64,000 nt of DNA, taken from NCBI RefSeq assembly GCF_900103175.1, contig NZ_FNLF01000002.1, forward strand, positions 558,001 to 622,000, given 5' to 3'. The stretch is from Tsukamurella pulmonis. GTDB taxonomy: Bacteria; Actinomycetota; Actinomycetes; Mycobacteriales; Mycobacteriaceae. A program made the translations under genes and the position numbers. Positions 1,504-23,307 of the stretch are shown piece after piece (the first letter of the stretch is position 1; every line of letters starts with the position of its first letter). The notes beneath the pieces are model-generated. The model did not search any database and had not been told where the DNA came from. It saw only the letters and a program-made list of their open reading frames with translations.

Positions 1504-1964
1504 CCGCGTCCGAGCGTCTCGCCGAGCTGGGCATCGTCCTGCCGGAGGTCGTGCCGCCGCTCGCCGCGTACGTCCCCGCCACGCAGGTCGGCGACTTCGT
1601 CTACACCTCGGGCCAGCTGCCCATGCGCGACGGCGAGCTCGTCGCCCAGGGCAAGGTCAGCGAGAACCGCGAGGGCATCGTGCACCTCGACGACGCGACC
1701 TTCGCGGCCCGGCAGTGCGCGCTCAACGCTCTCGCCGCGATTCACGCGCTGGTCGGCATCGACTCGGTCAAGCGCGTCGTCAAGGTCACCGGTTACGTCG
1801 CCTCCGCGCCCGGCTTCTCCAACCAGGCGCTGGTGCTCAACGGGGCGTCGCTCCTGATCGGCGAGGTCTTCGGCGACGCGGGCGTGCACGTGCGGTCGGC
1901 CGTCGGCGTCGCGGAGCTGCCGCTCGGCGCACCCGTCGAGGTCGAGCTCACGGTCCAGGTATGA
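1500..1964 (+). CDS. RidA/YjgF-family protein (Rv3678c-type)
   Basis: 154 residues. RidA proteins are trimeric cytosolic enamine/imine deaminases that remove reactive 2-aminoacrylate-type intermediates. Visible family features are VGDFVYTSGQLPMRDGELV near residues 30-48, KVTGYVASAPGF in the middle and the C-terminal VGVAELPLGAPVEVELTVQV. The family's substrate-binding Arg in the usual position is replaced by the VGVAELPLGAPVE context typical of the actinobacterial subgroup, so true deaminase activity is not certain. The GTG start overlaps the DUF4177 stop and the gene's own stop overlaps the next gene (ATGA), giving a tight three-gene unit. Confidence 0.88.
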   Translation: MTASERLAELGIVLPEVVPPLAAYVPATQVGDFVYTSGQLPMRDGELVAQGKVSENREGIVHLDDATFAARQCALNALAAIHALVGIDSVKRVVKVTGYVASAPGFSNQALVLNGASLLIGEVFGDAGVHVRSAVGVAELPLGAPVEVELTVQV

Positions 1965-2776
1965 CGGAGCACCCGGCGCCGGGCACGCTGCGGCAGGTCA
2001 CGCCCTACGCCGCGGTGATGCTCTGCGACAACCCGTCGGTGATGACCCTCGAGGGCACCAACACGTGGATCCTGCGCGCCCCGGGGCGCGCGGAGGCCGT
2101 CGTCGTCGATCCCGGCCCGAAGGGCGAGAAGAAGCATCTCAAGCGGGTCGCGAAGGCCGCCGGCACCGTCGCCCTCACGCTGGTCACGCACCGGCACGGC
2201 GACCACACCGGCGCCCTGAAGAAGTGGGAGGAGCGCACCCGCAGCCCCATCCGGGCCTTCTCCGAGAAGTACTGCACCGATTCCGCGACGCCGCTCGTCG
2301 GCGGCGAGGTGATCGAGGTGGCGGGGCTGCGGATCGAGGTGGTGCACACGCCCGGCCACACCGCCGACTCGCTGAGCTTCCTCGTCGACGGCGCCGAGGG
2401 GGAGCCCGGCGCGCTCGTCTCGGGCGACACGATCCTCGGCCGCGGCACCACTGTGCTCGACGCGAGTGACGGCACGCTCGCCGACTACCTGGGCTCGCTG
2501 GAGACGTTGTCGACGGTGGCCGCCGGCCGCGTCCTGCTGCCGGGGCACGGTCCGGACCTGCCCGACGCGGGCCCGGTCGTCACGGCCTACACGGCGCACC
2601 GCCAGGACCGTCTGCAACAGGTCCGCGACGCACTGGACGAGCTCGGCGTGCGCGCCGCCGATGCGAAGCCGATGAAGATCGTCAAGCACGTCTACCGCGA
2701 CGTGGACAAGAAGGCCTGGCCCGCGGCGCGGCAGTCCGTGAAGGTGCAGCTGCAATACCTCGCCGAGCACGGCTGA
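1961..2776 (+). CDS. Metallo-beta-lactamase-fold hydrolase (Rv3677c-type)
   Basis: 271 residues, LACTB2-like member of the MBL superfamily. The metal motif THRHGDHTG is near residues 70-78, with HTPGHTADS and VSGDTILG supplying the later His and Asp ligands and LLPGHGPDL the final His. The C-terminal third is helical, with a basic winged region (RADAKPMKIVKHVYRD), as in the LACTB2 group, some of which act on RNA. The substrate here is not known. It is the last gene of the coupled DUF4177-RidA-MBL set and is followed after 6 bp by a PrpF-like gene that may be read through. Confidence 0.88.
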   Translation: MTEHPAPGTLRQVTPYAAVMLCDNPSVMTLEGTNTWILRAPGRAEAVVVDPGPKGEKKHLKRVAKAAGTVALTLVTHRHGDHTGALKKWEERTRSPIRAFSEKYCTDSATPLVGGEVIEVAGLRIEVVHTPGHTADSLSFLVDGAEGEPGALVSGDTILGRGTTVLDASDGTLADYLGSLETLSTVAAGRVLLPGHGPDLPDAGPVVTAYTAHRQDRLQQVRDALDELGVRAADAKPMKIVKHVYRDVDKKAWPAARQSVKVQLQYLAEHG

Positions 2777-2782
2777 CCCGCC

Positions 2783-3925
2783 GTGGCGCTGCGCTGGATC
2801 GACGCCGTCTTCCTGCGGGGAGGCACCAGCAAGGGCCTGTTCTTCCGGGAGACCGACCTGCCGCCGCCCGGCCCCGAGCGCGACGGGCTGTACCTCCGCG
2901 CGCTCGGCTCGCCCGACCCGTTCGGCCGGCAGCTCGACGGCATGGGCGGCGGGCTGTCGTCGCTGTCGAAAGTCGTGGCGGTGCGGGCGAGCGATCGGCC
3001 CGGCGTCGATCTGGAGTACACGTTCGGGCAGGCCGCGATCCGCGAGCCGGTGATGGACTACTCCGGCAACTGCGGGAACCTCTCCGCCGCCGTCGTGCCG
3101 TTCGCGCTGGGGGCGGGACTGCTCGCGCTCGACGACGGCGACCATGCCGTCGTGGTGCACAACACGAACACCGACAAGTCGCTCCGCGTCCGGCTGACCG
3201 TCGTGGGCGGCGCGGCGGCGACCGAGGGCGCGCTCGCGATTCCCGGCGTGCCCGGCACCGGCGCGGCCGTCGAGCTCGAGTACCTCGACCCGGGCGGCGC
3301 CCGGACGGGATCCCTGCTGCCCGGCGGCGGCCCGCGGACGCGGCTGCGGTTCGAGGGGCGCGACTATGCGGCGTCGCTGCTGGACGCGGCGACGCCGATG
3401 GTCTTCGTCGCGGCGGGGGAACTGGGAGTGACCGGCACCGAGACGCCGGAGGACCTCGACGCGGACGCCGGCCTGCAGGCGCGGCTCGACGGCCTCCGGC
3501 GCGCCGGCGCGGTCGCGATGGGACTCGCGGACCGTCCGGAGGAGGCGCCCCTCGCGGTACCCAAGATCGCCGTCGTCGCCGGGCCCCGCGCGACGCGCAC
3601 GATCGACGGGACGGAGCTACCGGCGGACGCGTCGGACGTGGTCGTGCGGACGATCTCGATGGGGCAGACGCACCGGGCGATCCCCGGCACCGCCGCGCTG
3701 GCGGTGGCCGTCGCCGCAGCGGTGCCGGGCTCGCTGGTCGCCGAGGCGGCGTCGCGTGCTGAGGGCGACGTGCGCATCGCCACCCCGTCGGGCGTCGTCA
3801 CGGCTCGCGCCGTGGTGGCCTCGCGGCCCGACGGGCCGCACGCCGTGACGGCCTCGCTGCTGCGGACGGCCCGGCCCCTCATGCGCGGTCAGGTCGCCGT
3901 CCCGGCGGGTGATCCCACCCACTGA
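2783..3925 (+). CDS. PrpF/4-oxalomesaconate tautomerase-family protein
   Basis: 380 residues with a GTG start 6 bp after the MBL gene. The protein shows the PrpF family signature: FLRGGTSKGLFF at residues 10-21, then DGMGGGLSSLSKV and the active-site region MDYSGNCGNLSAAV with the conserved Cys, and a late MGQTHRAIPGTAA. Members isomerise or tautomerise unsaturated tricarboxylates, for example 2-methylaconitate in the methylcitrate cycle or 4-oxalomesaconate in aromatic degradation. No methylcitrate genes are adjacent, so the substrate cannot be assigned. This gene is not part of the mycobacterial Rv3677-Rv3676 order that I recall and looks like an insertion. Confidence 0.85.
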   Translation: MALRWIDAVFLRGGTSKGLFFRETDLPPPGPERDGLYLRALGSPDPFGRQLDGMGGGLSSLSKVVAVRASDRPGVDLEYTFGQAAIREPVMDYSGNCGNLSAAVVPFALGAGLLALDDGDHAVVVHNTNTDKSLRVRLTVVGGAAATEGALAIPGVPGTGAAVELEYLDPGGARTGSLLPGGGPRTRLRFEGRDYAASLLDAATPMVFVAAGELGVTGTETPEDLDADAGLQARLDGLRRAGAVAMGLADRPEEAPLAVPKIAVVAGPRATRTIDGTELPADASDVVVRTISMGQTHRAIPGTAALAVAVAAAVPGSLVAEAASRAEGDVRIATPSGVVTARAVVASRPDGPHAVTASLLRTARPLMRGQVAVPAGDPTH

Positions 3926-3930
3926 CGAGA

Positions 3931-3980
3931 AACGTCCGGTCATTCGTCTCCACGATCGTGGGAACGAACGACCGGACGTT
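3931..3980. terminator. Bidirectional hairpin terminator between prpF-like gene and glxR
   Basis: Arms of 17 nt at 3931-3947 (AACGTCCGGTCATTCGT) and 3964-3980 pair with a single mismatch, around a 16-nt loop that itself contains the palindrome CCACGATCGTGG. It lies between two convergent genes. There is no U tract, as is common for actinobacterial terminators. Confidence 0.7.
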
Positions 3981-4003
3981 GTCGGATCCGGTGCGGCGCG
4001 GGG

Positions 4004-4678
4004 CTAGCGGGCGCGGCGGGCCAGGCGCTCGGAATCCGTGATCACCACGGACTTGCCCTCGAGCCGCAGCCAGCCGCGGTGGGCGAAGTCGGCCAGCGCC
4101 TTGTTCACGGTCTCGCGGGACGCGCCGACGAGCTGCGCGATCTCCTCCTGCGTGAGGTCGTGCGTGACTCGCAGCGCGCCGTTCTCGTGCGTGCCGAAGC
4201 GCTGCGCGAGCTGCAGCAGCTGCTTGGCCACGCGGCCGGGAACGTCGGTGAAGATGAGGTCGGCGAGGTTGTTGTTGGTGCGGCGCAGGCGGCGGGCCAG
4301 CACGCGCAGCAGCTGCTCGGCGATCTCGGGCCGGTCGCGGATCCACGCGCGCAGCGCCTCGCGGTCCATCGTCATCGCGCGGACCTCGGTGATGCAGGTG
4401 GCACTCGACGTGCGCGGGCCCGGGTCGAAGATGGACATCTCGCCGAACATGTCCGACGGGCCCATCACCGACAGCAGGTTCTCCCGGCCGTCCGGCGAGC
4501 GGCGGCCGAGCTTCACCTTGCCCGAGAGAATGATGTACAGCCGGTCACCGGGCTCGCCCTCGTTGAAGATGACGTGCCCGCGGGGGTAGTCGACCTCGTG
4601 CAGATCCTTGGTGAGCGCATCGACTGCGCCCGGCTCGACACCCTGAAAAATGCCGGCCCGCGCCAGGACCTCGTCCAC
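4004..4678 (-). CDS. glxR: CRP/FNR-family cAMP-responsive global regulator
   Basis: 224 residues from the GTG at 4678 ([16 protein letters not shown]), exactly the length and N-terminus of actinobacterial GlxR/Crp (Rv3676 orthologue). Residues about 15-120 form the cyclic-nucleotide domain with [21 protein letters not shown] as the cAMP pocket containing the conserved Glu, Arg and Ser-Ser-Ala. The C-terminal winged helix includes [21 protein letters not shown] as recognition helix. It acts as a homodimer on TGTGA-N6-TCACA-type sites. A candidate site lies upstream at 4765-4780, suggesting autoregulation. The longer upstream frame (to 4909) is not needed and has no matching N-terminus in the family. 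Confidence 0.95.
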
Positions 4679-6645: not shown

Positions 6646-7352
6646 CGGCGCCGCGGTGGCTCGATCCGCTGCTCGGCAACCTCGGCGACATCGCGGGAGA
6701 GCTGGAGCACCGCGGCGGCGCCGTCGCCGCCCTGCAGCGCGTGCGCAACCCGCGCCGGGCCTCGGTCCTCATCCTCTTCGACGGCGACCCGTCCGCGGCC
6801 GGGGCGGGCCCGCCCGAGGACGCGACGGTGCTGCTCACCCAGCGCGCCTCGGCGATGCGCCAGCACGCGGGGCAGGTGGCCTTCCCCGGCGGCGCCCGCG
6901 ATCCGGAGGACGCGGACGACGTGGCGGTCGCGCTGCGCGAGGCCGAGGAGGAGACGGGGCTGGACCCCGCCGCCGTCCAGGTGCTCGCCGAGCTCGACCC
7001 GATCGAGGTCCCGGTCTCGGGCTTCCGCGTGGTGCCCGTGATCGGCTTCGCCGCCAGTCCGCCCGACGTGCGCGCCGTCGATCCCGCGGAGACCGCACTG
7101 GTCCGGCGCGTGCCGCTCGCCGAGCTCATCGATCCGGCGCACCGGTTCATGGTGCGCAAGTCCTTCTACCGCGGTCCCGCCTTCGCCGCCGGGCCGATGC
7201 TGGTCTGGGGCTTCACCGGCGGGCTGTTGAACGCGCTGATCAGCGCCGCGGGCTGGGAGCGGCCCTGGAACACCGACGACGTGCGGCCGCTCACCGACGA
7301 GGTGCACGCCGCCGCGGCGCGCGCCCAGAACTGGCAGGAGAGCCCTCGATGA
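6642..7352 (+). CDS. NUDIX hydrolase, CoA pyrophosphatase-like (Rv3672c-type)
   Basis: 236 residues from a GTG that overlaps the previous stop (GTGA). The NUDIX box is seen as FPGGARDPED followed by ALREAEEETGL, with the metal-binding REAEEE glutamates. The preceding LLTQRASAMRQHAGQVAFPGG is the UPF0035-type pattern of CoA/acyl-CoA pyrophosphatases (YeaB/NUDT7 group). A role in trimming CoA derivatives is inferred from family only. The stop overlaps the marP start (ATGA). Confidence 0.88.
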   Translation: MTAPRWLDPLLGNLGDIAGELEHRGGAVAALQRVRNPRRASVLILFDGDPSAAGAGPPEDATVLLTQRASAMRQHAGQVAFPGGARDPEDADDVAVALREAEEETGLDPAAVQVLAELDPIEVPVSGFRVVPVIGFAASPPDVRAVDPAETALVRRVPLAELIDPAHRFMVRKSFYRGPAFAAGPMLVWGFTGGLLNALISAAGWERPWNTDDVRPLTDEVHAAAARAQNWQESPR

Positions 7353-8542
7353 CCGGTTCGACCTGGGTCGACGTGGTCGTCGTCGTCCTGATGATCCTGG
7401 CCGCCGTCTCCGGCTACCGGCAGGGAGCGGCGGCCTCGGTGCTCGCCTTCATCGGCGTCGTGCTCGGCGCCGCGGCCGGCGTGCTGCTCGCACCGCACGT
7501 GCTCGACTCCGTCGGCGACGCCAAGGGGCGGCTGCTGCTGGGCGTCGGCCTGCTGGCCGGGCTGGTGATCATCGGCGAGCTCTCGGGCATGGTGCTCGGG
7601 CGGGCGGTGCGCAGTTCGATCCGCAGCACCGGCCTGCGCACCGTCGACTCCGGTGTCGGCGCCGTGGTGCAGGTCGGCGCACTGCTCGTGGCCGCCTGGC
7701 TGGTGGCGATCCCGCTGACCTCGGCGGCCGCCCCGCAGATCTCCCGCTCCGTCAACGGCTCCGCCGTACTCGGTGCTGTCAACGAGTTCGCGAAGGTCGT
7801 CGGCGCCGACGGGCTGCCGCAGAAGTTCTCCGCGATCATCGACGACTCCGGCCTGCCGCAGGCGCTGGGGCCGTTCGTCAACACCCCCGTGGTCAGCGTC
7901 GAGGCGCCGGACCGGATGGACTTCACCGACCCGGCGGTGCAGCGCGTCCGCTCGTCCGTGGTCCGGATCGACGGCCAGGCGCCCTCGTGCAGTCGCGCGC
8001 TGGAGGGCACGGGCTTCGTCGCCACTCCGGGCCGCGTGGTCACCAACGCCCACGTCGTCGCCGGCACGCGCAGCGTGCAGGTCACCGTCGACGGGACCAC
8101 GAAGTACAGTGCGCAGGTCGTCTACTTCGACGCCCAGACCGACGTCGCGGTGCTCGAGGTGCCGGGCCTGAAGGCCACGCCGCTGCGCATCGTCTTCAAC
8201 GGCGCCAAGCCCGGCGATCCGGGCTTCGTGCTCGGCTACCCGGGCGGCGGCCCGCTGACCCTGTCCTCGTCGCGCGTGCGCAGCCAGCAGACCCTCGAGG
8301 GGCGCAACATCTACCGCGACGCCCAGGTCCGGCGCGACGTCTACCTGCTCCGCGGCCAGGTGCGTCCCGGCAACTCGGGCGGACCCGTCTTCGACCGCGA
8401 GGGCAACGTGGTCGGCGTGATCTTCGGTGTGGCCGTGGACGACGCCGACACCGCCTTCGCCCTCACGGCCAAGCAGGTCGAGCCCGCGCTGAGGGCGACC
8501 GCGACCGAGGGCGTCTCGACGGGGGCCTGCGTCAACCGCTGA
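7349..8542 (+). CDS. marP: Periplasmic serine protease MarP (acid/oxidative stress resistance)
   Basis: 397 residues. The N-terminal about 150 residues form a CvpA-like membrane domain with four hydrophobic segments. The C-terminal half is a chymotrypsin-like protease facing the periplasm, with catalytic His in NAHVVAG, Asp in AQTDVAVLEV and Ser in RPGNSGGPVF. A pair of cysteines (PSCSRALEG and the C-terminal GACVNR) matches the regulatory disulfide described for mycobacterial MarP. It ends the nth operon and is the orthologue of Rv3671c, which is required for intrabacterial pH homeostasis in M. tuberculosis. Confidence 0.93.
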   Translation: MTGSTWVDVVVVVLMILAAVSGYRQGAAASVLAFIGVVLGAAAGVLLAPHVLDSVGDAKGRLLLGVGLLAGLVIIGELSGMVLGRAVRSSIRSTGLRTVDSGVGAVVQVGALLVAAWLVAIPLTSAAAPQISRSVNGSAVLGAVNEFAKVVGADGLPQKFSAIIDDSGLPQALGPFVNTPVVSVEAPDRMDFTDPAVQRVRSSVVRIDGQAPSCSRALEGTGFVATPGRVVTNAHVVAGTRSVQVTVDGTTKYSAQVVYFDAQTDVAVLEVPGLKATPLRIVFNGAKPGDPGFVLGYPGGGPLTLSSSRVRSQQTLEGRNIYRDAQVRRDVYLLRGQVRPGNSGGPVFDREGNVVGVIFGVAVDDADTAFALTAKQVEPALRATATEGVSTGACVNR

Positions 8543-12694: not shown

Positions 12695-12739
12695 TCGACC
12701 GCGCGCCGCCGGTGACGGTGGCGACGGGGCACCGACGGC

Positions 12740-12768
12740 GACGGCGCCGACCACTGGTCGGCGCCGTC
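12740..12768. terminator. Strong perfect hairpin between MFS gene and the giant gene
   Basis: A 14-bp perfect stem (GACGGCGCCGACCA at 12740-12753) closes on a single-nucleotide loop with its complement at 12755-12768. It lies between two convergent genes and can serve both. No U tract. Confidence 0.75.
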
Positions 12769-12782
12769 GTGCGTGGTGCGGG

Positions 12783-15700
12783 TCAGCCCGCGGTGACCGG
12801 GGAGTCCGAGTCGGAGGACGAGTCGGCGGTGGAATCCCCTGCGCCGGAGGCATCCGTATCCGACGACGCCCCGGAGCCGGAGGTCGCGTCCGACCCGGAC
12901 GAGTCCGCGCCGCCCGTCCCCGCACCGCTCGTGCTCGGGGCGTCCGCGCTCGAGCCCGATCCGCTCGTGTCGGCCCCGCCGGACGGGCTCGTGGCCGCGC
13001 CGCCGGGCGCATCGGAGGTGCCCCGATCCGAGCTGCCGGAGCCGGACCCGTTCGTCCCGGTGCTCGACGGGGAATCCGTCGACGGTGCCGGAAGCTCCGG
13101 CTGCGTCGCGGTCGCACCGCTCGAACCCGTGGTCGTTGACGCCTTCTCGGCGGCATCGGCCGCGGCCTTGGCCTCGGCCGCCGCCTTCTCGGCCGCCGCC
13201 CTGTCCTGCGCGGAGCGGTCCACGGCGGGCTTGTCGACCGGCGTGCGCGCGGCCTCGGCGGCGGCGCGGTCGGCCGCGGCCTTGGCCTCGGCCGCCTTCT
13301 CCGCCGCTGTCCGTGCGGCCGCCTCACCGTCCTGCGTGCCGGTGCCCGCGGCCTCGGCCTCCTTCGCTGCTGTTGCTTGGTCGGCGGCGGCTTTGTCTGC
13401 TGCGGCTTTCTGGGCGGCGGCGTTGTCTGCCATGGCTTTGTCGATGGCGGCCTTGTCGGCGGCGTTCTTCTCGGCGGTGGCTTGGGCGGCTGCTGCTTGG
13501 TCGGCGGCGTTCTTGGCGGTGTCGGCCTTGGTCGCTGCGTCCTGTTGGGCTGCTGCGGCGTCGGCGGCTGCCTTGTCGGCTGCTGCTTGGGTGGCGGCGG
13601 CCTGTTCGGCGGTGGCGGTGGCCTGGGCGGCTTGTTCGGTGGCTGCGGCCTGTTTGGCGTCGGCGTCCTGTTGTGCGGTGGTGGCCTTCTCGGCTGCTGC
13701 GGTCTTGTCCGCGGCGGTCTGGTCGGCTGCCTGCTTGGCGGTGGTGGCCTGTTCGGCTGCGGCGGTGGCGGCGTCGGCTGCTGCCTGGTCCGCTGCGGCC
13801 TTCTCGGCTGCCTGGGTGGCGGCGTCGGTGGCGTTGCGTTGTGCGGTGGCGGCGTCGGCGGCGGACTTGTCGGCCTGGGCCTGCGCTTGGGCGGAGGCGT
13901 CGGCTGCTGCCTGGTCCGCGGCGGCTTTCTCGGCTGCCTGGGTGGCGGCGTCGGTGGCGTTGCGTTGTGCGGTGGCGGCGTCGGCGGCGGACTTGTCGGC
14001 CTGGGCTTGGGCTTCTGCGGAGTTCGCTGCGTTCTGCTTGTCCGCGGTTGCCTTGTCCTGGGCGGCCTTTGCTGCGGCTGCGGCGTCGGCTGCTTGCTGG
14101 TCGGCGGCGGCGCGTTCGGTGGCGGCCTTCTCGGCTGCCTGCTTGGCGGTGTCGGCTGCGGTCTTGTCCGCGGTTGCCTTGTCCTGGGCGGTCTTCGCTG
14201 CGGCTGCGGTGTCGGCTGCTTGCTGGTCGGCGGCGGCGCGTTCGGTGGCGGCCTTGTCGGCTGCGGTCTTCGCTGCGTCGGCGGCGTCGGCGGCCTTGGT
14301 GGCGGCGTCGGCTGCTGCCTGATCGGCGGTGGCGGCGTCCTGCAGTGCCTTCGCGGCGTCGGCCGCTGCCTTGTCCGCGGCGGCCTTCTCGGCGGCCGCT
14401 TGCTGCGCGGCGGCGGTCGTCGAGGCTGCTCGGTCGGCGGCGGCCTTGGCCGCCTGCTCGGCGTCCTGCTGTGCCTGCGCTGCGTCGGCGGCGACCTTGT
14501 CGGCTGCTGCCTTCTCCGCGGCGGCCTTGTCCGCGGTTGCCCGTGTGGCGGTCGCTGCGTCGGCGGCGGCCTGGGCGGCGTCGGTGGCACGGGTCTGTGC
14601 TGCTGCGGCGTCGGCCTGTGCCTTGTCGGCGGCGGTCTTCGCGGCGTCGGCGTCGGCGGCGGCCTGGGTGGCGGCGGCTGCCTTGTCCGCGGCGAGCTTC
14701 TCCGCAGCGGTCGCTGCGTCGGTGTTGCCGGCGGCGGTGGTAGCGGCTTCGCGGGCCTTCGCGGCGTCGGCGGCGGCGCGGTCGGCGTCGGCCTTGGCCT
14801 TGTCGGCTGCGGTCTTCGCGGCGTCCGCGGCTGCGGTGGCGGTGGCGGCGGCTGCGGCCTTGTCGGTCGCCTCCTTCGCTGCTGTTGCTTGGTCGGCGGC
14901 GGCTTTGTCTGCTGCGGCTTTCTGGGCGGCGGCGTTGTCTGCCATGGCTTTGTCGATGGCGGCCTTGTCGGCGGCGTTCTTCTCGGCGGTGGCTTGGGCG
15001 GCTGCTGCTTGGTCGGCGGCGTTCTTGGCGGTGTCGGCCTTGGTCGCTGCGTCCTGTTGGGCTGCTGCGGCGTCGGCGGCTGCCTTGTCGGCTGCTGCTT
15101 GGGTGGCGGCGGCCTGTTCGGCGGTGGCGGTGGCCTGGGCGGCTTGTTCGGTGGCTGCGGCCTGTTTGGCGTCGGCGTCCTGTTGTGCGGTGGTGGCCTT
15201 CTCGGCTGCTGCGGTCTTGTCCGCGGCGGTCTGGTCGGCTGCCTGCTTGGCGGTGGTGGCCTGTTCGGCTGCGGCGGTGGCGGCGTCGGCTGCTGCCTGG
15301 TCCGCTGCGGCCTTCTCGGCTGCCTGGGTGGCGGCGTCGGTGGCGTTGCGTTGTGCGGTGGCGGCGTCGGCGGCGGACTTGTCGGCCTGGGCCTGCGCTT
15401 GGGCGGAGGCGTCGGCTGCTGCCTGGTCCGCGGCGGCTTTCTCGGCTGCCTGGGTGGCGGCGTCGGTGGCGTTGCGTTGTGCGGTGGCGGCGTCGGCGGC
15501 GGACTTGTCGGCCTGGGCTTGGGCTTCTGCGGAGTTCGCTGCGTTCTGCTTGTCCGCGGTTGCCTTGTCCTGGGCGGCCTTTGCTGCGGCTGCGGCGTCG
15601 GCTGCTTGCTGGTCGGCGGCGGCGCGTTCGGTGGCGGCCTTCTCGGCTGCCTGCTTGGCGGTGTCGGCTGCGGTCTTGTCCGCGGTTGCCTTGTCCTGGG

Positions 15701-18700
15701 CGGTCTTCGCTGCGGCTGCGGTGTCGGCTGCTTGCTGGTCGGCGGCGGCGCGTTCGGTGGCGGCCTTGTCGGCTGCGGTCTTCGCTGCGTCGGCGGCGTC
15801 GGCGGCCTTGGTGGCGGCGTCGGCTGCTGCCTGATCGGCGGTGGCGGCGTCCTGCAGTGCCTTCGCGGCGTCGGCCGCTGCCTTGTCCGCGGCGGCCTTC
15901 TCGGCGGCCGCTTGCTGCGCGGCGGCGGTCGTCGAGGCTGCTCGGTCGGCGGCGGCCTTGGCCGCCTGCTCGGCGTCCTGCTGTGCCTGCGCTGCGTCGG
16001 CGGCGACCTTGTCGGCTGCTGCCTTCTCCGCGGCGGCCTTGTCCGCGGTTGCCCGTGTGGCGGTCGCTGCGTCGGCGGCGGCCTGGGCGGCGTCGGTGGC
16101 ACGGGTCTGTGCTGCTGCGGCGTCGGCCTGTGCCTTGTCGGCGGCGGTCTTCGCGGCGTCGGCGTCGGCGGCGGCCTGGGTGGCGGCGGCTGCCTTGTCC
16201 GCGGCGAGCTTCTCCGCAGCGGTCGCTGCGTCGGTGTTGCCGGCGGCGGTGGTAGCGGCTTCGCGGGCCTTCGCGGCGTCGGCGGCGGCGCGGTCGGCGT
16301 CGGCCTTGGCCTTGTCGGCTGCGGTCTTCGCGGCGTCCGCGGCTGCGGTGGCGGTGGCGGCGGCTGCGGCCTTGTCGGTCGCCTCCTTCGCTGCTGTTGC
16401 TTGCTCGAGTGCCGACTTCTCCGCAGCGATCCTGTCGGCCTCCGCCCGGTTCACTGCGTCCGTGCCCGCCTTCGCGGCATCGGCCGCGGCCTGCGCCGCG
16501 GTCCGGGCTTCGTCCTCGGCGGTCGCCTGGTCGGCGGCGGCCCGCTGCGCGGTGGCCGTATCCGTCGCGACGCGCTCGGCCGCAGCGCCCGCTGCAGCGT
16601 CCGCCTCGCGCTGCGCAGTCGCCGCCTCGGCGGCGGCGGTATCGGCCGCTGCCTTCTCGGCGAGCGCCTTCTCGGCGGCGGTCCGTGCGGCGGACTCGTT
16701 CTCGGCGGCGGCCCGCGCGGCCGCCGCAGCGGCATCTCCGGTCGCCGCGGCCTCGGTGGCGGCCTTCTCGGCGGCCGCCTGCGCAGTCGCGGCGGCCTCG
16801 GCGGCGGCCTGGTCCGCAGCGGCCTTGTCGGCCGCGGCCTGCGCGGTCCGGGCCTTGTCGGCGGCGGTCGTCTCGGCGGCGTCCCGCGCCGCGGCGGCGA
16901 GCTGCGCGTCGCGGTCGGCGGCGGCCGCGGCGTCAGCGGCCTGCTGGTCGGCGGTGCCCTTCTCCGTGGCGATCCTCGCGGCCTCGACGGCCTTCTGCTG
17001 CGCGGCGTTCGCCTCGGCCGCCGCCTCGTCGGCGGCGGCGCGGGCGGCATCCGCGGCGGCCCGATCGGCCGCGGCCTTGTCGGTGGCCGCCTTGGCCGCG
17101 GCGTCGGCGCTCTGCCGGGCGGCGGCCGCGGCAGCCACTGCCTTATCGGCCGCTGCCCTGTCTGCTGCTGCCTTGTCGGCTGCGGCACGGGCCGTGGTCG
17201 CCTGGGCGGTGGCGACCCGTGCCGCATCGGCGGCCTTCTGCTCCGCGGCCGCGGCATCGGCCGCCACCTTGTCCGCCGCCGTCTTCGCTGCGGCGGACTG
17301 CTGCTGGGCGGCCTTGGCGGCGGTCTCCTTCTGCGCCGCCGCCGTCGCGGCCGCGGCAGCGGCGGAGGTGATGGCGGCTCGTTCGAGCGCGGTGGCCTCG
17401 GCGGCGGCCTTGCTCGCGGCGAGCCTGTCGGCAGCCGCCTTCGCGGCCGCGGCGGAGTCGTTCGGATTCGCCGCGGCGTACGCCGCGGACTTGTCCGCCG
17501 CGGCCTGCAGCGCTGCGGCCTTGTCCTTCGCCGTACGGACCGCGGGATCGTCGTAGGCGACAGGTCCCACTGCCGCGGCTGAGCGATCCGCAGTCGTCTG
17601 CGCGGCGGTGGCCTTCTCCGTCGCCGTGGTCAGCGCGGCATCGGCCGTCTGCTTGGTGGCGTTCGCCCCGGCCAGCGTGTCCTGCGACACGGTATAGGCG
17701 GCGGCGGCCGACGTGGATTGGTTCGACGCGGTGGTGGCGGCTGCCGTTGCGGTGGTCGACGCGCTCTGCGCGACGTTGTTGCGGGCGATCGCATCGTTGA
17801 GCGCCGCCTGCGCGGCGGCGAGATTGGCACGCTCCGTGCGGTACGCCCCGAGGAGCTCCCAGAACGGGGAGAAGATGCTGCCGCCGGTCGCGGCGCGCAG
17901 TTCGTTTTCCCGCTGCGTCACCAGCGCCTGCGCGGCACTGACATCGGCGGCCGTCCTGGTGGCGGTGGCCTGCGCCTGTTGCGCGGCCGTGACCGCTGCG
18001 GCGGCCTTGGCCTGCGCCTGCTGCAGAGCTGTCGCGCTGGTCTGGGCGGCGCGCTGCGCGTCCTGCTGCGCGCGGGCGGCATCGGCCGCGGCCTGGCTCG
18101 CCGCCGCCTGCTGGGAAGCGGCGACCGCGGACGTGGCGGCATCCTGCTGGGCCTTGACCGCCGCGGCGGCCGTCGCCTGCGCCTTCGCGCTGTCAGCGGT
18201 GGCCCTCTCGGCGGCGGCCTTGTCCGCGGCGGCTTTGTCGGCCGCTGCTCGCGCCGTGGCATCCGCGTCGGCGCGCGTCGCCGTGGCCGTGGCAGCGGCG
18301 CGCTCGGCTGCAGCACGGTCGGCGTCCGCTTGCGTGGCGGCCTGCTGTGCCTTCTGCGCGGTCGCCGCCGCGGTCGCCGCCGCGGCATCGGCCTCGCGCT
18401 GGCGGGTCGCCGCGGCTGCGGCGGCCTGCTGAGCGGCCACCTGTGCCGCCGCCGACGTGCGGGCGGCGTCCTCGGCGGCCGCCGCGGCATCCTTCGCGAT
18501 GCGAGCGGCGTCGGTCTTGGCGGCGGCGAGTCGCTCCGCGTCGGCGCGAGCGGCATCGGCGGCCGCCTTGTCCGCCGCTGCCCGATCGGCCGCGGTGTTC
18601 GCGACGGCGGCCTTGTCGGCGGCTGCCTTCTCCGCCGCAACCTTCTCCGCCACAGCCTGATCCGCGACCGCCCGGTCGCGATCGGCTGCAGCCCGAGCGT

Positions 18701-21700
18701 CGGCCGAGTCCGCCGCGGCGGTGCGCGTCGCGTCGGCCTGCTCGGTGGCCTTCGTCGCTGCGGCGCTCTTCTCCGCCGCGGTGCGGGCCGCGTCGGCGGC
18801 GGCCTTCTCGGCGGCGGCCTTGTCGGCGGCGGCCGCATCGGACTCGGAGGTCTTCTGTGCGGCGTTCGCAGCGGCACGGTCGGCCGCCGCTGCCGCGGCC
18901 GCGCCGGCCTCCGCTGCGGCCGCGGCAGCGGAGTCCGCTTCCACTTGCTCCGCCTGGGACGTACGCAGGTCGTTCTGTGCGGCGGCGGTGCGCTCGGCCG
19001 CTGCGGCCGCGACTGCCGCCTTCTCGGTGGAACCGGTAGCGGCATCACGCGCGGCGGACCGAGCGGCGTCCGCCTCGGCCGCGGAACGCTCCGCGGCGGC
19101 CTTGTCGGCGGCGGCGCGGGCGTCCGCCGCCGTCTTCGCGGTCGCGGCATCCTGCGCGGCCCGCTGGGCGGCGGTGGCGGACTGATCGGCGGTGTTCCGC
19201 GTGGCGGCGGCGTTGTCAGCCGCGGTCTTGGCTGCGGCGGCCTTCTCCTCGGCGGCCTGCGCGGCCGCATCCGACTCGGCGCCGGCCTTCTCGGCTGCGG
19301 TCCTGTCCTGGGCGGCCTGCGCGGCGGCCGCGTCGGCCAGCTGCTGCGCGGTCCGGGCCGCGGCGGCGTTGTCGGCCGCCGTCGCCGCGGCGACGGTCTT
19401 CGCCGCGAGGTCCTGGTCGGCGAGGGCCCGGTTGTTGTCGGCCTGGTTCTTGGCAGTGAGCGCCTGTGCGGCAGCGGAATCGGCTGCCGCGGACTCGCTG
19501 GTCGCGGTGGCGGCACGCTCGGTGGCGGCGTCCGCCACCCGGGTCGCCTCGGCGGCGTTCTCGTCGGCCGCGGTCTTGGCTGCGGCGGCCTCCGCGGCCG
19601 CCTCCTCGGCGGCGGTGGCCTTCTGCGCTGCTTGCTGTGCGGCGGTGGTTGTGGTGGTGGCGTTGGTGGTGGCGGTGTCGAGGGTGGCGGCGGTGGTGGT
19701 TCGTTCGTCGGCGGCGCGGCGGGCGGCTGCGGCGGTGTCGGCGGCGGTTTGGTCGGCGGCCTGTTGTGCGGCGGTTTTGTCGGCGGCGTTGGTGGCGGCG
19801 TCGGCGGCCTGCTTTTCGGCGTGGGTCTGTGCGGCGGCGGATCGTTCGGCGGCTGCGGCGGTGTCGGCGGCGGTCTTGTCGGCGGCCTGTTGTGCGGCGG
19901 TTTTGTCGGCGGCGTTGGTGGCGGCGTCGGCGGCCTGCTTTTCGGCCTGGGCTTGTGCGGCGGCGGAGTCGGCGGCGGTGGCGTTGTCGGCGGTGGCCTT
20001 GTCGGCTGCTGCCGCGGCGGCGTCGCGGGCGGCGGTGGCGTCGGCGCTCGCCTCGGCGGCCTGCTTTTCGGCCTGGGCTTGTGCGGCGGCGGAGTCGGCG
20101 GCGGTGGCCTTGTCGGCCGCGGCCTTCGCTGCGGCCTGCTCGGCTGCGGCGGCAGTGGTGGTGGCCTGGGTGGTGGCGTCGGCGGCTGCCTTGTCGGCGG
20201 CGGTCTTGTCGGCGGCTGCCTTCTCGGCGGTGGCCCGGTCCTCGGCTGCCTTGTCGGCGGCGGTCTGGCGTTCGGTTTCGCGCTGGGCGGCTGCGGCGTC
20301 GGCGGCCTGCTTTTCTGCGGTGGCCTTCTCGGCGGCCTGCTTCGCGTCGGCTGCGGTGGCGGTGGCGTCGTTGAGGCGGTCGATGGCGTCGGTTGCTGCC
20401 TGGTCGGCGGCGGATCGGGCCTTCTCGGCTGCGGTCTTCGCGGCGGCGGCGTCGGTTGCTGCCTGGTCGGCGGCGGCCTTGGTGGCCTGTGCGGTGGCCA
20501 GCTTCTCGGCTGCGGTCGTGGCGGCGGCGGTGTCGTTCGCGGCTTGTTCGTCTGCGGCGGCGCGGTCCTGGCTCGCCTTCTCCGCGGCCGCCTGCGCCTG
20601 AGCCTGCGCCTGCTGCGCCGCGGTGAGCTCATCGGCCGCGGTCTTCGCTGTCGCGGCGGCGTCCTGCGCGGCCTTGATCGCCGACGCCGCGGCCTGCTCG
20701 GCCGCCTTCTGCTCGGCGACGGCCTGCTCTGCGGCGGACCGCGTCTCCGACTCCGCTGCAGAAGCGGCGCGCGCCTCGGTGGCGCGGGAGTCGGCGATCG
20801 CGACGGCCTCCGCCTTGTCCCGGGCGGCCTGCGCGGCGGCCGCGTCGGCCAGCTGCTGCGCGGTCAGGGCCGCGGCGGCGTTGTCGGCCGCCGTCGTGGC
20901 GGCCTCGGTCTTCGTGGCGAGATCCTGGTCGGCCACGGCCTTCGCGGCATCGGCATCCTTCTTGGCCGCCTGCGACTGATCCGCAGCCGCCGCGGCGGCT
21001 GCGGCATCAGCGGCGGCCGACCTCGCCCGGTCGGCGGCGTTCATCGCCGTCGTGGCGGCGTCGGCGGCCTTCTGGTCCGCGGTGGCCTTCTCAGCGGCCG
21101 CCTGGTTCGCGGCAGTGGTTGCGGCGGTGGCCTTCTGCGCTGCTTGCTGTGCGGCGGTGGTTGTGGTGGTGGCGTTGGTGGTGGCGGTGTCGAGGGTGGC
21201 GGCGGTGGTGGTTCGTTCGTCGGCGGCGCGGCGGGCGGCTGCGGCGGTGTCGGCGGCGGTTTGGTCGGCGGCCTGTTGTGCGGCGGTTTTGTCGGCGGCG
21301 TTGGTGGCGGCGTCGGCGGCCTGCTTTTCGGCGTGGGTCTGTGCGGCGGCGGATCGTTCGGCGGCTGCGGCGGTGTCGGCGGCGGTCTTGTCGGCGGCCT
21401 GTTGTGCGGCGGTTTTGTCGGCGGCGTTGGTGGCGGCGTCGGCGGCCTGCTTTTCGGCCTGGGCTTGTGCGGCGGCGGAGTCGGCGGCGGTGGCGTTGTC
21501 GGCGGTGGCCTTGTCGGCTGCTGCCGCGGCGGCGTCGCGGGCGGCGGTGGCGTCGGCGCTCGCCTCGGCGGCCTGCTTTTCGGCCTGGGCTTGTGCGGCG
21601 GCGGAGTCGGCGGCGGTGGCCTTGTCGGCCGCGGCCTTCGCTGCGGCCTGCTCGGCTGCGGCGGCAGTGGTGGTGGCCTGGGTGGTGGCGTCGGCGGCTG

Positions 21701-23096
21701 CCTTGTCGGCGGCGGTCTTGTCGGCGGCTGCCTTCTCGGCGGTGGCCCGGTCCTCGGCTGCCTTGTCGGCGGCGGTCTGGCGTTCGGTTTCGCGCTGGGC
21801 GGCTGCGGCGTCGGCGGCCTGCTTTTCTGCGGTGGCCTTCTCGGCGGCCTGCTTCGCGTCGGCTGCGGTGGCGGTGGCGTCGTTGAGGCGGTCGATGGCG
21901 TCGGTTGCTGCCTGGTCGGCGGCGGATCGGGCCTTCTCGGCTGCGGTCTTCGCGGCGGCGGCGGCGGTTGCTGCCTGGTCGGCGGCGGCCTTGGTGGCCT
22001 GTGCGGTGGCCAGCTTCTCGGCTGCGGTCGTGGCGGCGGCGGTGTCGTTCGCGGCTTGTTCGTCTGCGGCGGCGCGGTCCTGGCTCGCCTTCTCCGCGGC
22101 CGCCTGCGCCTGCTCAGCGGCCGCGGTGGCGGCGGCGAGGCGCTCGTCGGCCTTCTTCACGGCCTCCGCGGTCGCGGACTGGTTCGCGCGGGCGGCCTCG
22201 ACGGCCTTGCGGGCCCGCTCCGCCTCGCGCGCAGCCCAATCCGCGGCGATCCGCGCACCGAGCGCGTTGGCGCGCGCCTGTGCCGCCCAGTCGACACCGG
22301 GAATGCTCACGGGGGAGCGGAGATCGAAGTATCCGCCGATACCGAAGCCGAACCCGATTCCGGGGCCCAGGCCGATGCCGAAGCCGATGCCGGCGCCGAG
22401 GCGCAGGGTGCCGTCGGGGGCGTAGCCCAAACCGGCGCCCGCGCCGAAGCCGATGCCGTACCCGGGGGCGAGCCCCAGGCTCACTCCGCCGCCGAGACCG
22501 TAGGGGAGGTACGGGCCGAATCCGGGCGTGATCCCGAGCTGGAAGCCGGGCGTGAAGCCGTAGCCCGAGTTGAAGCCCGCGCCGAGGCCCGCGCCGGAAC
22601 CGAAGCCGAAGCCGTTGCCGAGCCCGGCGCCCAGACCTGCACCGGCACCGAAGCCGAGGCCCGGCCCCACCCCGACACCTGCGCCGATGCCGAAACCCGG
22701 ACCGCGCGAGGGTGCGCCCACGCCGATCCACGGGCCGAGTCCGATCTGCCCGAAGTCCGCGGCATTGGAGATGACGTACCTGCCGTTGCTGGTGAAACCG
22801 CCGATCGCGAACCCGCAGCTCAGGTCGAGCGGCGAGCTTGCGCCGCGCGCGCCCAGCCAGACCAGGCGGGTCGGGTAGCACTGTGCGCCGGACCCCGTCA
22901 CGGAGCTCCGCCCGCTTGCGGCGCTCGTCGGCACCTGCACGCTGAACGGCGCGCCGCCGGAGACCGAGATCGCCGAGGTCAGAACCTCACGGCCACCTGC
23001 CTCGGCATCCGCCTGCGCGGAGGCGAGTCCGAGCGAGGTCGAGGTCATCATTCCGACGACGGTGGTGGTGGCTGCAGCGGCACGGGCGATCGACAT
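12783..23096 (-). CDS. Giant secreted Ala-rich (coiled-coil-like) repeat protein, 3,437 residues
   Basis: The N-terminus (about 1-27) is a Sec-type signal peptide ending LASA-QA. Residues about 30-130 are a small non-repetitive domain with two cysteines (GAQCYPTRLVW, LDLSCGFAI). Residues about 132-255 are a Gly-rich segment of GFGIGAGVGVG type. From about 262 to 3,318 the chain is built almost only of Ala, Lys, Asp, Glu, Thr and Gln in AADKAAAEK-like heptads, consistent with a very long alpha-helical rod or coiled coil. The last 120 residues are Ser/Gly/Thr/Asp-rich without an LPXTG signal. Two 504-residue copies (about 2,238-3,245) are tandem and nearly identical, and a 330-residue pair (about 329-658 and 832-1,162) is spaced at the same 504 residues. 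The ribosome-binding site AGGA lies 8 nt before the ATG. I do not recognise the protein; a surface rod or stalk is an inference. Confidence 0.85.
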   Translation of the reverse strand: MSIARAAAATTTVVGMMTSTSLGLASAQADAEAGGREVLTSAISVSGGAPFSVQVPTSAASGRSSVTGSGAQCYPTRLVWLGARGASSPLDLSCGFAIGGFTSNGRYVISNAADFGQIGLGPWIGVGAPSRGPGFGIGAGVGVGPGLGFGAGAGLGAGLGNGFGFGSGAGLGAGFNSGYGFTPGFQLGITPGFGPYLPYGLGGGVSLGLAPGYGIGFGAGAGLGYAPDGTLRLGAGIGFGIGLGPGIGFGFGIGGYFDLRSPVSIPGVDWAAQARANALGARIAADWAAREAERARKAVEAARANQSATAEAVKKADERLAAATAAAEQAQAAAEKASQDRAAADEQAANDTAAATTAAEKLATAQATKAAADQAATAAAAAKTAAEKARSAADQAATDAIDRLNDATATAADAKQAAEKATAEKQAADAAAAQRETERQTAADKAAEDRATAEKAAADKTAADKAAADATTQATTTAAAAEQAAAKAAADKATAADSAAAQAQAEKQAAEASADATAARDAAAAAADKATADNATAADSAAAQAQAEKQAADAATNAADKTAAQQAADKTAADTAAAAERSAAAQTHAEKQAADAATNAADKTAAQQAADQTAADTAAAARRAADERTTTAATLDTATTNATTTTTAAQQAAQKATAATTAANQAAAEKATADQKAADAATTAMNAADRARSAAADAAAAAAAADQSQAAKKDADAAKAVADQDLATKTEAATTAADNAAAALTAQQLADAAAAQAARDKAEAVAIADSRATEARAASAAESETRSAAEQAVAEQKAAEQAAASAIKAAQDAAATAKTAADELTAAQQAQAQAQAAAEKASQDRAAADEQAANDTAAATTAAEKLATAQATKAAADQAATDAAAAKTAAEKARSAADQAATDAIDRLNDATATAADAKQAAEKATAEKQAADAAAAQRETERQTAADKAAEDRATAEKAAADKTAADKAAADATTQATTTAAAAEQAAAKAAADKATAADSAAAQAQAEKQAAEASADATAARDAAAAAADKATADNATAADSAAAQAQAEKQAADAATNAADKTAAQQAADKTAADTAAAAERSAAAQTHAEKQAADAATNAADKTAAQQAADQTAADTAAAARRAADERTTTAATLDTATTNATTTTTAAQQAAQKATAAEEAAAEAAAAKTAADENAAEATRVADAATERAATATSESAAADSAAAQALTAKNQADNNRALADQDLAAKTVAAATAADNAAAARTAQQLADAAAAQAAQDRTAAEKAGAESDAAAQAAEEKAAAAKTAADNAAATRNTADQSATAAQRAAQDAATAKTAADARAAADKAAAERSAAEADAARSAARDAATGSTEKAAVAAAAAERTAAAQNDLRTSQAEQVEADSAAAAAAEAGAAAAAAADRAAANAAQKTSESDAAAADKAAAEKAAADAARTAAEKSAAATKATEQADATRTAAADSADARAAADRDRAVADQAVAEKVAAEKAAADKAAVANTAADRAAADKAAADAARADAERLAAAKTDAARIAKDAAAAAEDAARTSAAAQVAAQQAAAAAATRQREADAAAATAAATAQKAQQAATQADADRAAAERAAATATATRADADATARAAADKAAADKAAAERATADSAKAQATAAAAVKAQQDAATSAVAASQQAAASQAAADAARAQQDAQRAAQTSATALQQAQAKAAAAVTAAQQAQATATRTAADVSAAQALVTQRENELRAATGGSIFSPFWELLGAYRTERANLAAAQAALNDAIARNNVAQSASTTATAAATTASNQSTSAAAAYTVSQDTLAGANATKQTADAALTTATEKATAAQTTADRSAAAVGPVAYDDPAVRTAKDKAAALQAAADKSAAYAAANPNDSAAAAKAAADRLAASKAAAEATALERAAITSAAAAAATAAAQKETAAKAAQQQSAAAKTAADKVAADAAAAEQKAADAARVATAQATTARAAADKAAADRAAADKAVAAAAAARQSADAAAKAATDKAAADRAAADAARAAADEAAAEANAAQQKAVEAARIATEKGTADQQAADAAAAADRDAQLAAAARDAAETTAADKARTAQAAADKAAADQAAAEAAATAQAAAEKAATEAAATGDAAAAAARAAAENESAARTAAEKALAEKAAADTAAAEAATAQREADAAAGAAAERVATDTATAQRAAADQATAEDEARTAAQAAADAAKAGTDAVNRAEADRIAAEKSALEQATAAKEATDKAAAAATATAAADAAKTAADKAKADADRAAADAAKAREAATTAAGNTDAATAAEKLAADKAAAATQAAADADAAKTAADKAQADAAAAQTRATDAAQAAADAATATRATADKAAAEKAAADKVAADAAQAQQDAEQAAKAAADRAASTTAAAQQAAAEKAAADKAAADAAKALQDAATADQAAADAATKAADAADAAKTAADKAATERAAADQQAADTAAAAKTAQDKATADKTAADTAKQAAEKAATERAAADQQAADAAAAAKAAQDKATADKQNAANSAEAQAQADKSAADAATAQRNATDAATQAAEKAAADQAAADASAQAQAQADKSAADAATAQRNATDAATQAAEKAAADQAAADAATAAAEQATTAKQAADQTAADKTAAAEKATTAQQDADAKQAAATEQAAQATATAEQAAATQAAADKAAADAAAAQQDAATKADTAKNAADQAAAAQATAEKNAADKAAIDKAMADNAAAQKAAADKAAADQATAAKEATDKAAAAATATAAADAAKTAADKAKADADRAAADAAKAREAATTAAGNTDAATAAEKLAADKAAAATQAAADADAAKTAADKAQADAAAAQTRATDAAQAAADAATATRATADKAAAEKAAADKVAADAAQAQQDAEQAAKAAADRAASTTAAAQQAAAEKAAADKAAADAAKALQDAATADQAAADAATKAADAADAAKTAADKAATERAAADQQAADTAAAAKTAQDKATADKTAADTAKQAAEKAATERAAADQQAADAAAAAKAAQDKATADKQNAANSAEAQAQADKSAADAATAQRNATDAATQAAEKAAADQAAADASAQAQAQADKSAADAATAQRNATDAATQAAEKAAADQAAADAATAAAEQATTAKQAADQTAADKTAAAEKATTAQQDADAKQAAATEQAAQATATAEQAAATQAAADKAAADAAAAQQDAATKADTAKNAADQAAAAQATAEKNAADKAAIDKAMADNAAAQKAAADKAAADQATAAKEAEAAGTGTQDGEAAARTAAEKAAEAKAAADRAAAEAARTPVDKPAVDRSAQDRAAAEKAAAEAKAAADAAEKASTTTGSSGATATQPELPAPSTDSPSSTGTNGSGSGSSDRGTSDAPGGAATSPSGGADTSGSGSSADAPSTSGAGTGGADSSGSDATSGSGASSDTDASGAGDSTADSSSDSDSPVTAG
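13361..16384. repeat. Tandem duplication, 2 x 1,512 bp, inside the giant gene
   Basis: The sequence beginning CCTTCGCTGCTGTTGCTTGG at 13361 recurs at 14873, and its first 18 bases start a third copy at 16385. The spacing is exactly 1,512 bp each time. The two full units (13361-14872 and 14873-16384) appear identical wherever I compared them, and translated copies match residue for residue. The unit is 504 codons, that is 72 heptads. Confidence 0.9.
19609..20601. repeat. Long direct repeat B, copy 1 (about 993 bp)
   Basis: Near-identical to 21121-22113, displaced by 1,512 bp. I see a single substitution (a Ser/Ala change read on one frame, near 20461 versus 21973). Outside this block the same 1,512-bp register continues as a diverged similarity, for example 19321 versus 20833. 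Confidence 0.85.
21121..22113. repeat. Long direct repeat B, copy 2 (about 993 bp)
   Basis: Partner of 19609-20601. It ends where the coding sequence enters the non-repetitive segment before the Gly-rich domain. Confidence 0.85.
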
Positions 23097-23307
23097 GTGT
23101 ACGGTCCTGGTTCGGAGGAAATGCGCCGGTGGGAGATGCAGCGCAGTACATAGTGTGATTGCACACAGATCCGCCGTCCAGAATTTGCAATGGAACGCAT
23201 GAAATCTTGATCTAGTTTTTGAATTGATCTTTCAAATGCAGATTGCCTCGAACGGGCATTCGTTCTACGAGGCAGGATTCCATGGTTTGTTCGTTAGCAA
23301 TAGATTG
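23097..23307. promoter_or_regulatory. Intergenic region upstream of the giant gene, with a palindrome
   Basis: A 211-bp stretch, more AT-rich than its surroundings. It holds a perfect inverted repeat GTGTG-ATTG-CACAC at 23153-23166, about 57 bp before the giant gene's ATG, next to a possible minus-strand -10 (CTATGT). The palindrome is too compact for a GlxR site (4-nt instead of 8-nt centre). The 3' side contains only the stop of the mug gene. No other gene is seen. Confidence 0.45.

Follow-up and report, generated by a model that had tools for sequence, protein, structure and literature searches.

Alanine-rich helical rods are represented by TolA domain II and by the Maxi-type antifreeze protein, the latter a hairpin at mid-chain; both are far shorter than the protein described here and belong to an unrelated context. 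The SMC proteins Smc and MukB are described as long antiparallel coiled coils that fold at a central hinge and bring their ends together, with arms of ~47-49 nm whose function, in these accounts, is limited to particular length ranges that recur periodically (PMC5344682; PMC5526789). On Gram-positive surfaces, the sequence preceding the adhesin domain of Antigen I/II and of PrgB is thought to coil with the sequence following it and to place the central domain at the tip, as outlined in PMC7726212. Giant extracellular proteins of a single lineage are also on record, namely Giant1-5 of Apilactobacillus kunkeei, given as 3,000-8,000 residues (PMC12863079). A search of open-licence literature, by titles and abstract openings, found no description of a protein such as the one reported below.

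The window analyzed here is a stretch of 64,000 nucleotides (G+C 70%) from Tsukamurella pulmonis, in a genome of 4.78 Mb held in two contigs. A sequence-only reading had noted an uninterrupted frame of 3,437 residues at 12783..23096; the frame stands, with an ATG start, and lies on the minus strand, which that reading left unstated. Across the gene the equivalent frame of the plus strand has two stops, and third-position G+C is 0.79-0.89 along its length. dN/dS is ~0.20-0.25 in the N-terminal region (298-301 codons; 0.188/0.763 against the orthologue in genome G013 and 0.192/0.947 against that in G010), 0.29-0.48 in the central module (0.273/0.940 against G013, 0.383/0.790 against G010), and 0.222/0.811 between the N termini of two paralogues. 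The family is under purifying selection and the window frame is coding. A spurious frame or wrong strand is ruled out by the dN/dS values together with orthologues in three other genomes.

The protein opens with an export-signal-like N terminus, identified by eye (residues 1-28, 23013..23096, minus strand as for all parts of the gene), which ends in ASA before a Gln, agrees with the signal peptide proposed previously, and is conserved in G013 and G010. A two-Cys domain follows (residues 60-130, 22707..22919) with Cys73 and Cys94, the sole cysteines of the protein, and then a Gly-rich stretch in which Gly alternates with F/I/L/V/A (residues 131-262, 22311..22706). The paralogues carry a CY...DC pair at the place equivalent to the two cysteines (by eye) and are without the Gly-rich stretch. 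The rod consists of an N arm of heptads (residues 274-1736, 17889..22277), a central module (residues 1737-1885, 17442..17888) and a C arm of heptads (residues 1886-3320, 13137..17441) that ends past a PVDK motif at residue 3286. The last part is a tail rich in Ser, Gly, Thr and Asp (residues 3321-3437, 12786..13136) whose C terminus reads SDSPVTAG and in which, by eye, there is no LPXTG sorting signal. Two-Cys domain, Gly-rich stretch and Ser/Gly tail are thus all present in the sequence as the earlier reading had described them; the minus strand, the central module and two 504-residue tandem duplications, one exact and the other exact over ~2/3 of its length, were not part of it. Directly past the stop codon, a perfect 13-bp inverted repeat with a 3-nt loop, read from the sequence (12740..12768, minus strand), is a possible terminator between convergent genes; a terminator scan made no call there, and a T run is absent at the repeat.

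The previous statement that the protein has no sorting motif or nameable domain also holds for the databases searched. The whole protein has matches to 0 families of Pfam and NCBIfam (E 0.1 and 0.01; low-complexity filters may mask weak rod matches), its two ends of ~300 residues each to 0 families of Pfam, and three pieces of it to 0 entries of PHROGs. Two profiles gave 0 matches to the PDB, the profile of the central module among them at E 0.1. In an AlphaFold model the N-terminal region has a mean pLDDT of 31, too low for the model to be of use.

The rod had been pictured as heptads of Ala, Lys, Asp and Glu, and of this description the heptads stand, with Thr and Gln to be added to the residue list: the rod is 48.9% Ala, 10.1% Thr, 9.7% Asp, 8.0% Gln, 6.6% Lys and 4.9% Glu, so that by composition Thr and Gln are of no less weight than Lys and Glu. 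In the window protein the power of Ala at period 3.50 reaches 27 in the N arm and 56 in the C arm, where 200 shuffles of each arm, scanned at every second period, peaked at 10.0 and 10.2. Across the six proteins of the family the Ala period peaks at 3.50 in 11 of 12 arms, and ten of the 12 also exceed the maximum of 200 shuffles; the N arm of the G013 paralogue (G013b) peaks at 3.50 inside the shuffle range (8.8 vs a maximum of 11.1), and that of the G010 paralogue (G010b) peaks at 3.49, beyond it (18.3 vs 8.5). Sustained periodicity of 3.5 residues, a hallmark of long coiled-coil proteins, is therefore a feature of this rod. In the window protein, heptad phase is held to 56 degrees over the C arm and to ~95 degrees over the N arm, a single weak window near the middle of the latter excepted. 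Repeat offsets (identity >=0.80 over 150 nt, best 14 offsets per gene) are multiples of 7 residues in 19 of 20 cases, for example 504, 462, 42 and 378, the exception being 183 residues, the strongest of the offsets in G010b.

Near the rod midpoint, all six genes encode a central module composed of a hydrophobic turn, the motif AVGxVxYDD 100-104 residues later, and then NPND; the window protein has the turn GGSIFSPFWELL followed by AAAVGPVAYDD and NPND, G004 has AVGVLDYDN, and in G010b HPDD replaces NPND. The turns of the other five proteins are GGLLTPIINLLF, GGVLTVILSLLF, GLIGGLLEWLF and, twice, GLIYNALDKILL; their letters vary among the proteins and their hydrophobicity is kept. In each of the six rods, LIVMFWY residues are densest at the turn, where a 13-residue window holds 7-8 of them; the best window elsewhere holds <=4 in five rods and 6 in G004. 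The module contains glycines as well as the short hydrophobic turn. Each rod has two breaks ~100 residues apart, the turn and YDD, either of which may mark the exact turn and axis. Searches with the central module found six genes in 4 of 16 genomes of the genus, and matches in 2 of 298 genomes of the order and 1 of 396 of the phylum (best first-look candidates scored), all within Tsukamurella; phages gave no match.

The two arms flanking this module are matched in length. Measuring the N arm from the rod start to the turn and the C arm from YDD to PVD, and leaving out by our own choice the 100-104 residues between the breaks, the N and C arms are 1463 and 1446 residues in the window protein, 931 and 942 in G010, 958 and 943 in G004, 1335 and 1320 in G013b, and 957 and 910 in G010b. 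At a rise of 0.1485 nm per helical residue, these lengths correspond to 217/215, 138/140, 142/140, 198/196 and 142/135 nm, respectively. In these five uninterrupted rods the arms differ by 11-47 residues (the largest difference, 47, in G010b), though arm length ranges from 910 to 1463; N and C lengths correlate with r = 0.997, and the N share of both arms is 0.497-0.513, in five proteins that are related and not independent, so that these figures serve as a guide. Permuting the C arms gives a fit as good or better in 4 of 120 cases, because three of the proteins are similar in size. Placing the axis at the turn gives each of the five proteins an excess of 57-115 residues in the C arm, and placing it at YDD an excess of 93-151 residues in the N arm; since the arms co-vary under either axis, co-variation is independent of that choice, and exact equality depends on it. 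The sixth protein, the G013 orthologue, is interrupted and has an N arm of 1463 residues and a C arm of ~1950 (summed over the pieces flanking an insertion), an excess of one 504-residue unit. Here the constraint may have been lost after the insertion split the gene.

Arm length is also connected with duplications of equal size on the two sides. Each arm of the window gene contains a tandem duplication of 504 residues (72 heptads): in the N arm, with approximate edges, copy 1 spans residues ~329-832 (20601..22112) and copy 2 residues ~833-1336 (19089..20600), 99.9% identical over the first 330 residues and 87% over 504; in the C arm, copy 1 spans residues 2232-2735 (14892..16403) and copy 2 residues 2736-3239 (13380..14891), with identical DNA. 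Exact DNA identity extends over 1535 bp between the C-arm copies and over 843 and 148 bp between the N-arm copies, which then have partly diverged. In the G013 paralogue each arm contains instead a duplication of 378 residues (54 heptads), at ~526-945 in the N arm (0.67-1.00 identity in most windows) and ~1681-2101 in the C arm (0.95-1.00). In the short forms, G010 has no window above 0.62 at offset 504, G010b has one window (0.63) at 378, and G004 has three isolated windows (0.63-0.89) at 504. A 42-residue tandem repeat is found in both arms of the three orthologues whose rod is uninterrupted. If duplications could take any length from 210 to 700 that is a multiple of 7, limits that we set ourselves, equal lengths would have a chance of ~0.014 per gene. 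The window duplications also occupy mirror positions, ~42-63 residues from the base of the N arm and ~39-49 from that of the C arm, for which chance alone, with tolerances set post hoc, gives 0.11; the mirror placement of the 378 pair is only rough, with a chance of 0.42.

The 504-residue pair is common to the window gene and the G013 orthologue, at an equivalent place. In ungapped DNA identity (window 19089-22112 and 13380-16403), the C-arm copies score 1.00 within the window genome and 0.84 within G013, vs 0.72 between the two genomes. Copies that are more alike within than between genomes imply either homogenization or duplications that recur, and we suggest one or the other for the 504-residue copies.

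The family thus comprises six genes, four orthologues and two paralogues, in 4 of 16 Tsukamurella genomes. The earlier proposal to search related genomes for the N-terminal domain was productive, yielding orthologues in three other Tsukamurella genomes: with the first 144 residues as query, 6 of 61 genomes match, four strongly, all of them Tsukamurella (the three other orthologues at 64-68% N-terminal identity to the window protein), and two weakly, beyond the genus, at 36-39% identity (E 1e-4 to 1e-3). In a wider search (best first-look candidates scored), 25 of 301 genomes match, of which four are strong (E <1e-140) and all within the genus; the other 21, one of which, G015, is in the genus, are weak, with E values from 5e-10 to 1e-3 and query ranges that fall mostly in the Gly-rich part. 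At 7 of these weak loci, in frames of at least 350 residues (first 400 residues read), comparable architecture was not seen, and by these searches the other sampled genera hold no convincing relative. The paralogues, of 3077 residues in G013 (L044:3152-12385) and 2312 residues in G010 (L078:5070-12008), lie at separate sites, the G013 copy having come to light through a further match in the wider search, and both begin with a lipobox-like ITASAC (by eye) that the window protein does not have. Their N terminus matches in 5 of 301 genomes (best first-look candidates scored), strongly in G010 and G013 and weakly in three. Within the window genome this N-terminus search turned up no paralogue, and the rod matched nothing else at E 1e-10 (best 150 of 1176 candidates scored); plasmids gave no match to the N terminus of the window protein. 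A pattern scan of genome contigs returned 240 matching stretches, one of them a relative, in Tsukamurella sp. TY48; the scan is non-exhaustive, and missed the counterparts in G004 and G010.

The gene is adjoined by an MFS transporter gene and a uracil-DNA-glycosylase-like (UDG) gene, and the block of NhaA, MFS, UDG, ABC and Acs is kept in the four carriers, whole, or partial near the ends of the sequence examined. The MFS gene is found in 15 of 16 genomes of the genus, the single miss being a draft in 890 contigs. At the site equivalent to window 12695-23307, the 11 non-carriers (L067-L077) have a ketopantoate-reductase-like gene in eight cases (Pfam ApbA at E 6e-34 in the one copy scanned; frame broken in G014, L073) and only 25-29 bp in three, which indicates that the giant gene is an optional occupant of a fixed site. 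Among carriers the 220-240 bp upstream are conserved in part, column identity averaging 67%. Damage is seen in two of the four orthologues: a transposase-bearing insertion (Pfam rve, HTH_Tnp_1; L011 ~1915-4540) divides the one in G013, with the remaining C arm and Ser/Gly tail beyond it, and the one in G004 has an in-frame TAG inside the two-Cys domain (L012 ~13865, minus strand), after which the frame reopens at a later start. Elsewhere in the window, a 628-residue frame (6656-8542, plus strand) joins a colicin V production domain to a trypsin-like protease domain, and we take it to resemble mycobacterial MarP.

We propose that the rod is an exported, Ala-rich coiled coil that doubles back at the central module into an antiparallel hairpin, the simplest reading in our view and one that we consider reasonably probable. 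The N arm of ~1,460 residues would pack antiparallel on the equally long C arm; by our own, subjective, estimate this pairing of the two arms is likely. The base would sit at the cell, with the two-Cys domain and Gly-rich stretch at one end of the chain and the Ser/Gly tail at the other, and the far tip would be the central module with its hydrophobic loop, ~215 nm away in this protein and ~140 nm away in the short relatives. The lipobox-like start of the paralogues fits an N-terminal anchor at the base. An intramolecular antiparallel hairpin requires equal arms, and any duplication on one side then calls for compensation on the other; arms may thus lengthen by in-register tandem duplications, one being retained when matched by an equal length in the opposite arm. 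The geometry is read from evolution: a conserved central turn, equal arms and paired duplications point to a chain that doubles back and reaches ~215 nm rather than ~440 nm. Against the hairpin stand the unequal arms of the G013 orthologue and the difference of 47 residues in G010b, the 183-residue offset of G010b, the N arm of G013b with no heptad signal beyond shuffles, the chances of 0.11 and 0.42 for the mirror positions, the presence of two breaks per rod, and scans of complementarity between the arms in which antiparallel pairing does not clearly stand out from parallel.

The same heptads, running along both arms, could also build a straight rod of ~440 nm, as a parallel coiled-coil homodimer or a single helix, with the module as a flexible joint or mid-rod binding site. 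Composition does not demand antiparallel pairing, and in scans of charge, size and aliphatic complementarity between the arms the peaks were comparable whether pairing was antiparallel or parallel; a straight rod leaves unexplained, however, why in five proteins with arms of 910-1463 residues the module strays from the midpoint by no more than 1.3%, and why duplications of equal length occur in both arms of two different genes, and we regard it as quite unlikely. A midpoint module and equal arms would likewise be required if straight chains formed an antiparallel homodimer, each N arm on the partner's C arm and two modules stacked mid-way. The glycines and short hydrophobic turn of the module are instead what is expected of a chain reversal, and such a dimer would carry signal and two-Cys domains at opposite ends and, in the lipobox-like paralogues, be anchored at both; these arguments make it unlikely.

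Patchy presence in 4 of 16 genomes of the genus, the insertion and unequal arms in G013, the TAG in G004, and repeat copies that resemble each other more closely within genomes than across them would all fit a simple-sequence gene that expands neutrally or selfishly, with its matched arms coincidental and decayed copies its normal state. The dN/dS of 0.20-0.48, the register of 7 residues in 19 of 20 repeat offsets (best 14 offsets per gene), the arm correlation and the paired duplication lengths speak against such an expansion, which we hold to be very improbable. The extended surface fibre of the sequence-only reading is retained in part: the protein is giant, rod-like and, by eye, exported, and a surface location may be inferred, whereas the turn, arms and duplications argue for doubling back rather than for a single extended fibre. 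The reach of a hairpin would be half that of the straight fibre previously pictured.

Arms of matched length about a central module, found in five proteins here and not in the interrupted sixth, are the likeness to SMC proteins. Those, however, are ATPases that act on chromosomal DNA and have globular heads, whereas the window protein appears exported (by eye), has arms ~3 to 4.5 times longer, and shows no ABC-type ATPase head domain (Pfam gave 0 families with the whole protein or with either ~300-residue end). By the features tested, it would work like an SMC protein and is not a member of that family. The arms are also far longer than those of Antigen I/II and PrgB. Those proteins carry an LPXTG anchor together with a polymer adhesin domain; the window protein has Ala-heptad arms, no LPXTG (by eye) and no match to the adhesin domain (0 families with the whole protein in Pfam or NCBIfam, 0 PDB chains with the module profile), and on these features is not a member of the Antigen I/II or polymer adhesins. 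To Giant1-5 it is likened by description, as a giant and apparently extracellular protein seen in one lineage.

We put slightly above an even chance the reading that these proteins are giant exported hairpins of SMC-like shape, 140-215 nm long, which form a new family, so far in one genus, whose arms co-evolve by paired in-register duplications and whose fast-changing hydrophobic tip is the working end. The hairpin may serve as a stalk whose tip touches other cells nearby or hydrophobic surfaces; that the hydrophobic tip is adhesive is a guess, and in our subjective view a tentative one. If the hairpin is correct, this would be a very long bacterial coiled-coil hairpin located outside the cell, and its relatives a natural experiment on how an antiparallel coiled coil changes length with its register kept. 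Matched steps of 504 residues in one gene and 378 in another, with neither in the short forms, make the length rule testable by deletions. The family would then document, as it occurs in nature, how the arms of an extracellular coiled coil are matched in length. To our knowledge few surface stalks are known in mycolic-acid bacteria, and the hairpin, if real, would provide these organisms with a defined surface structure of long reach.
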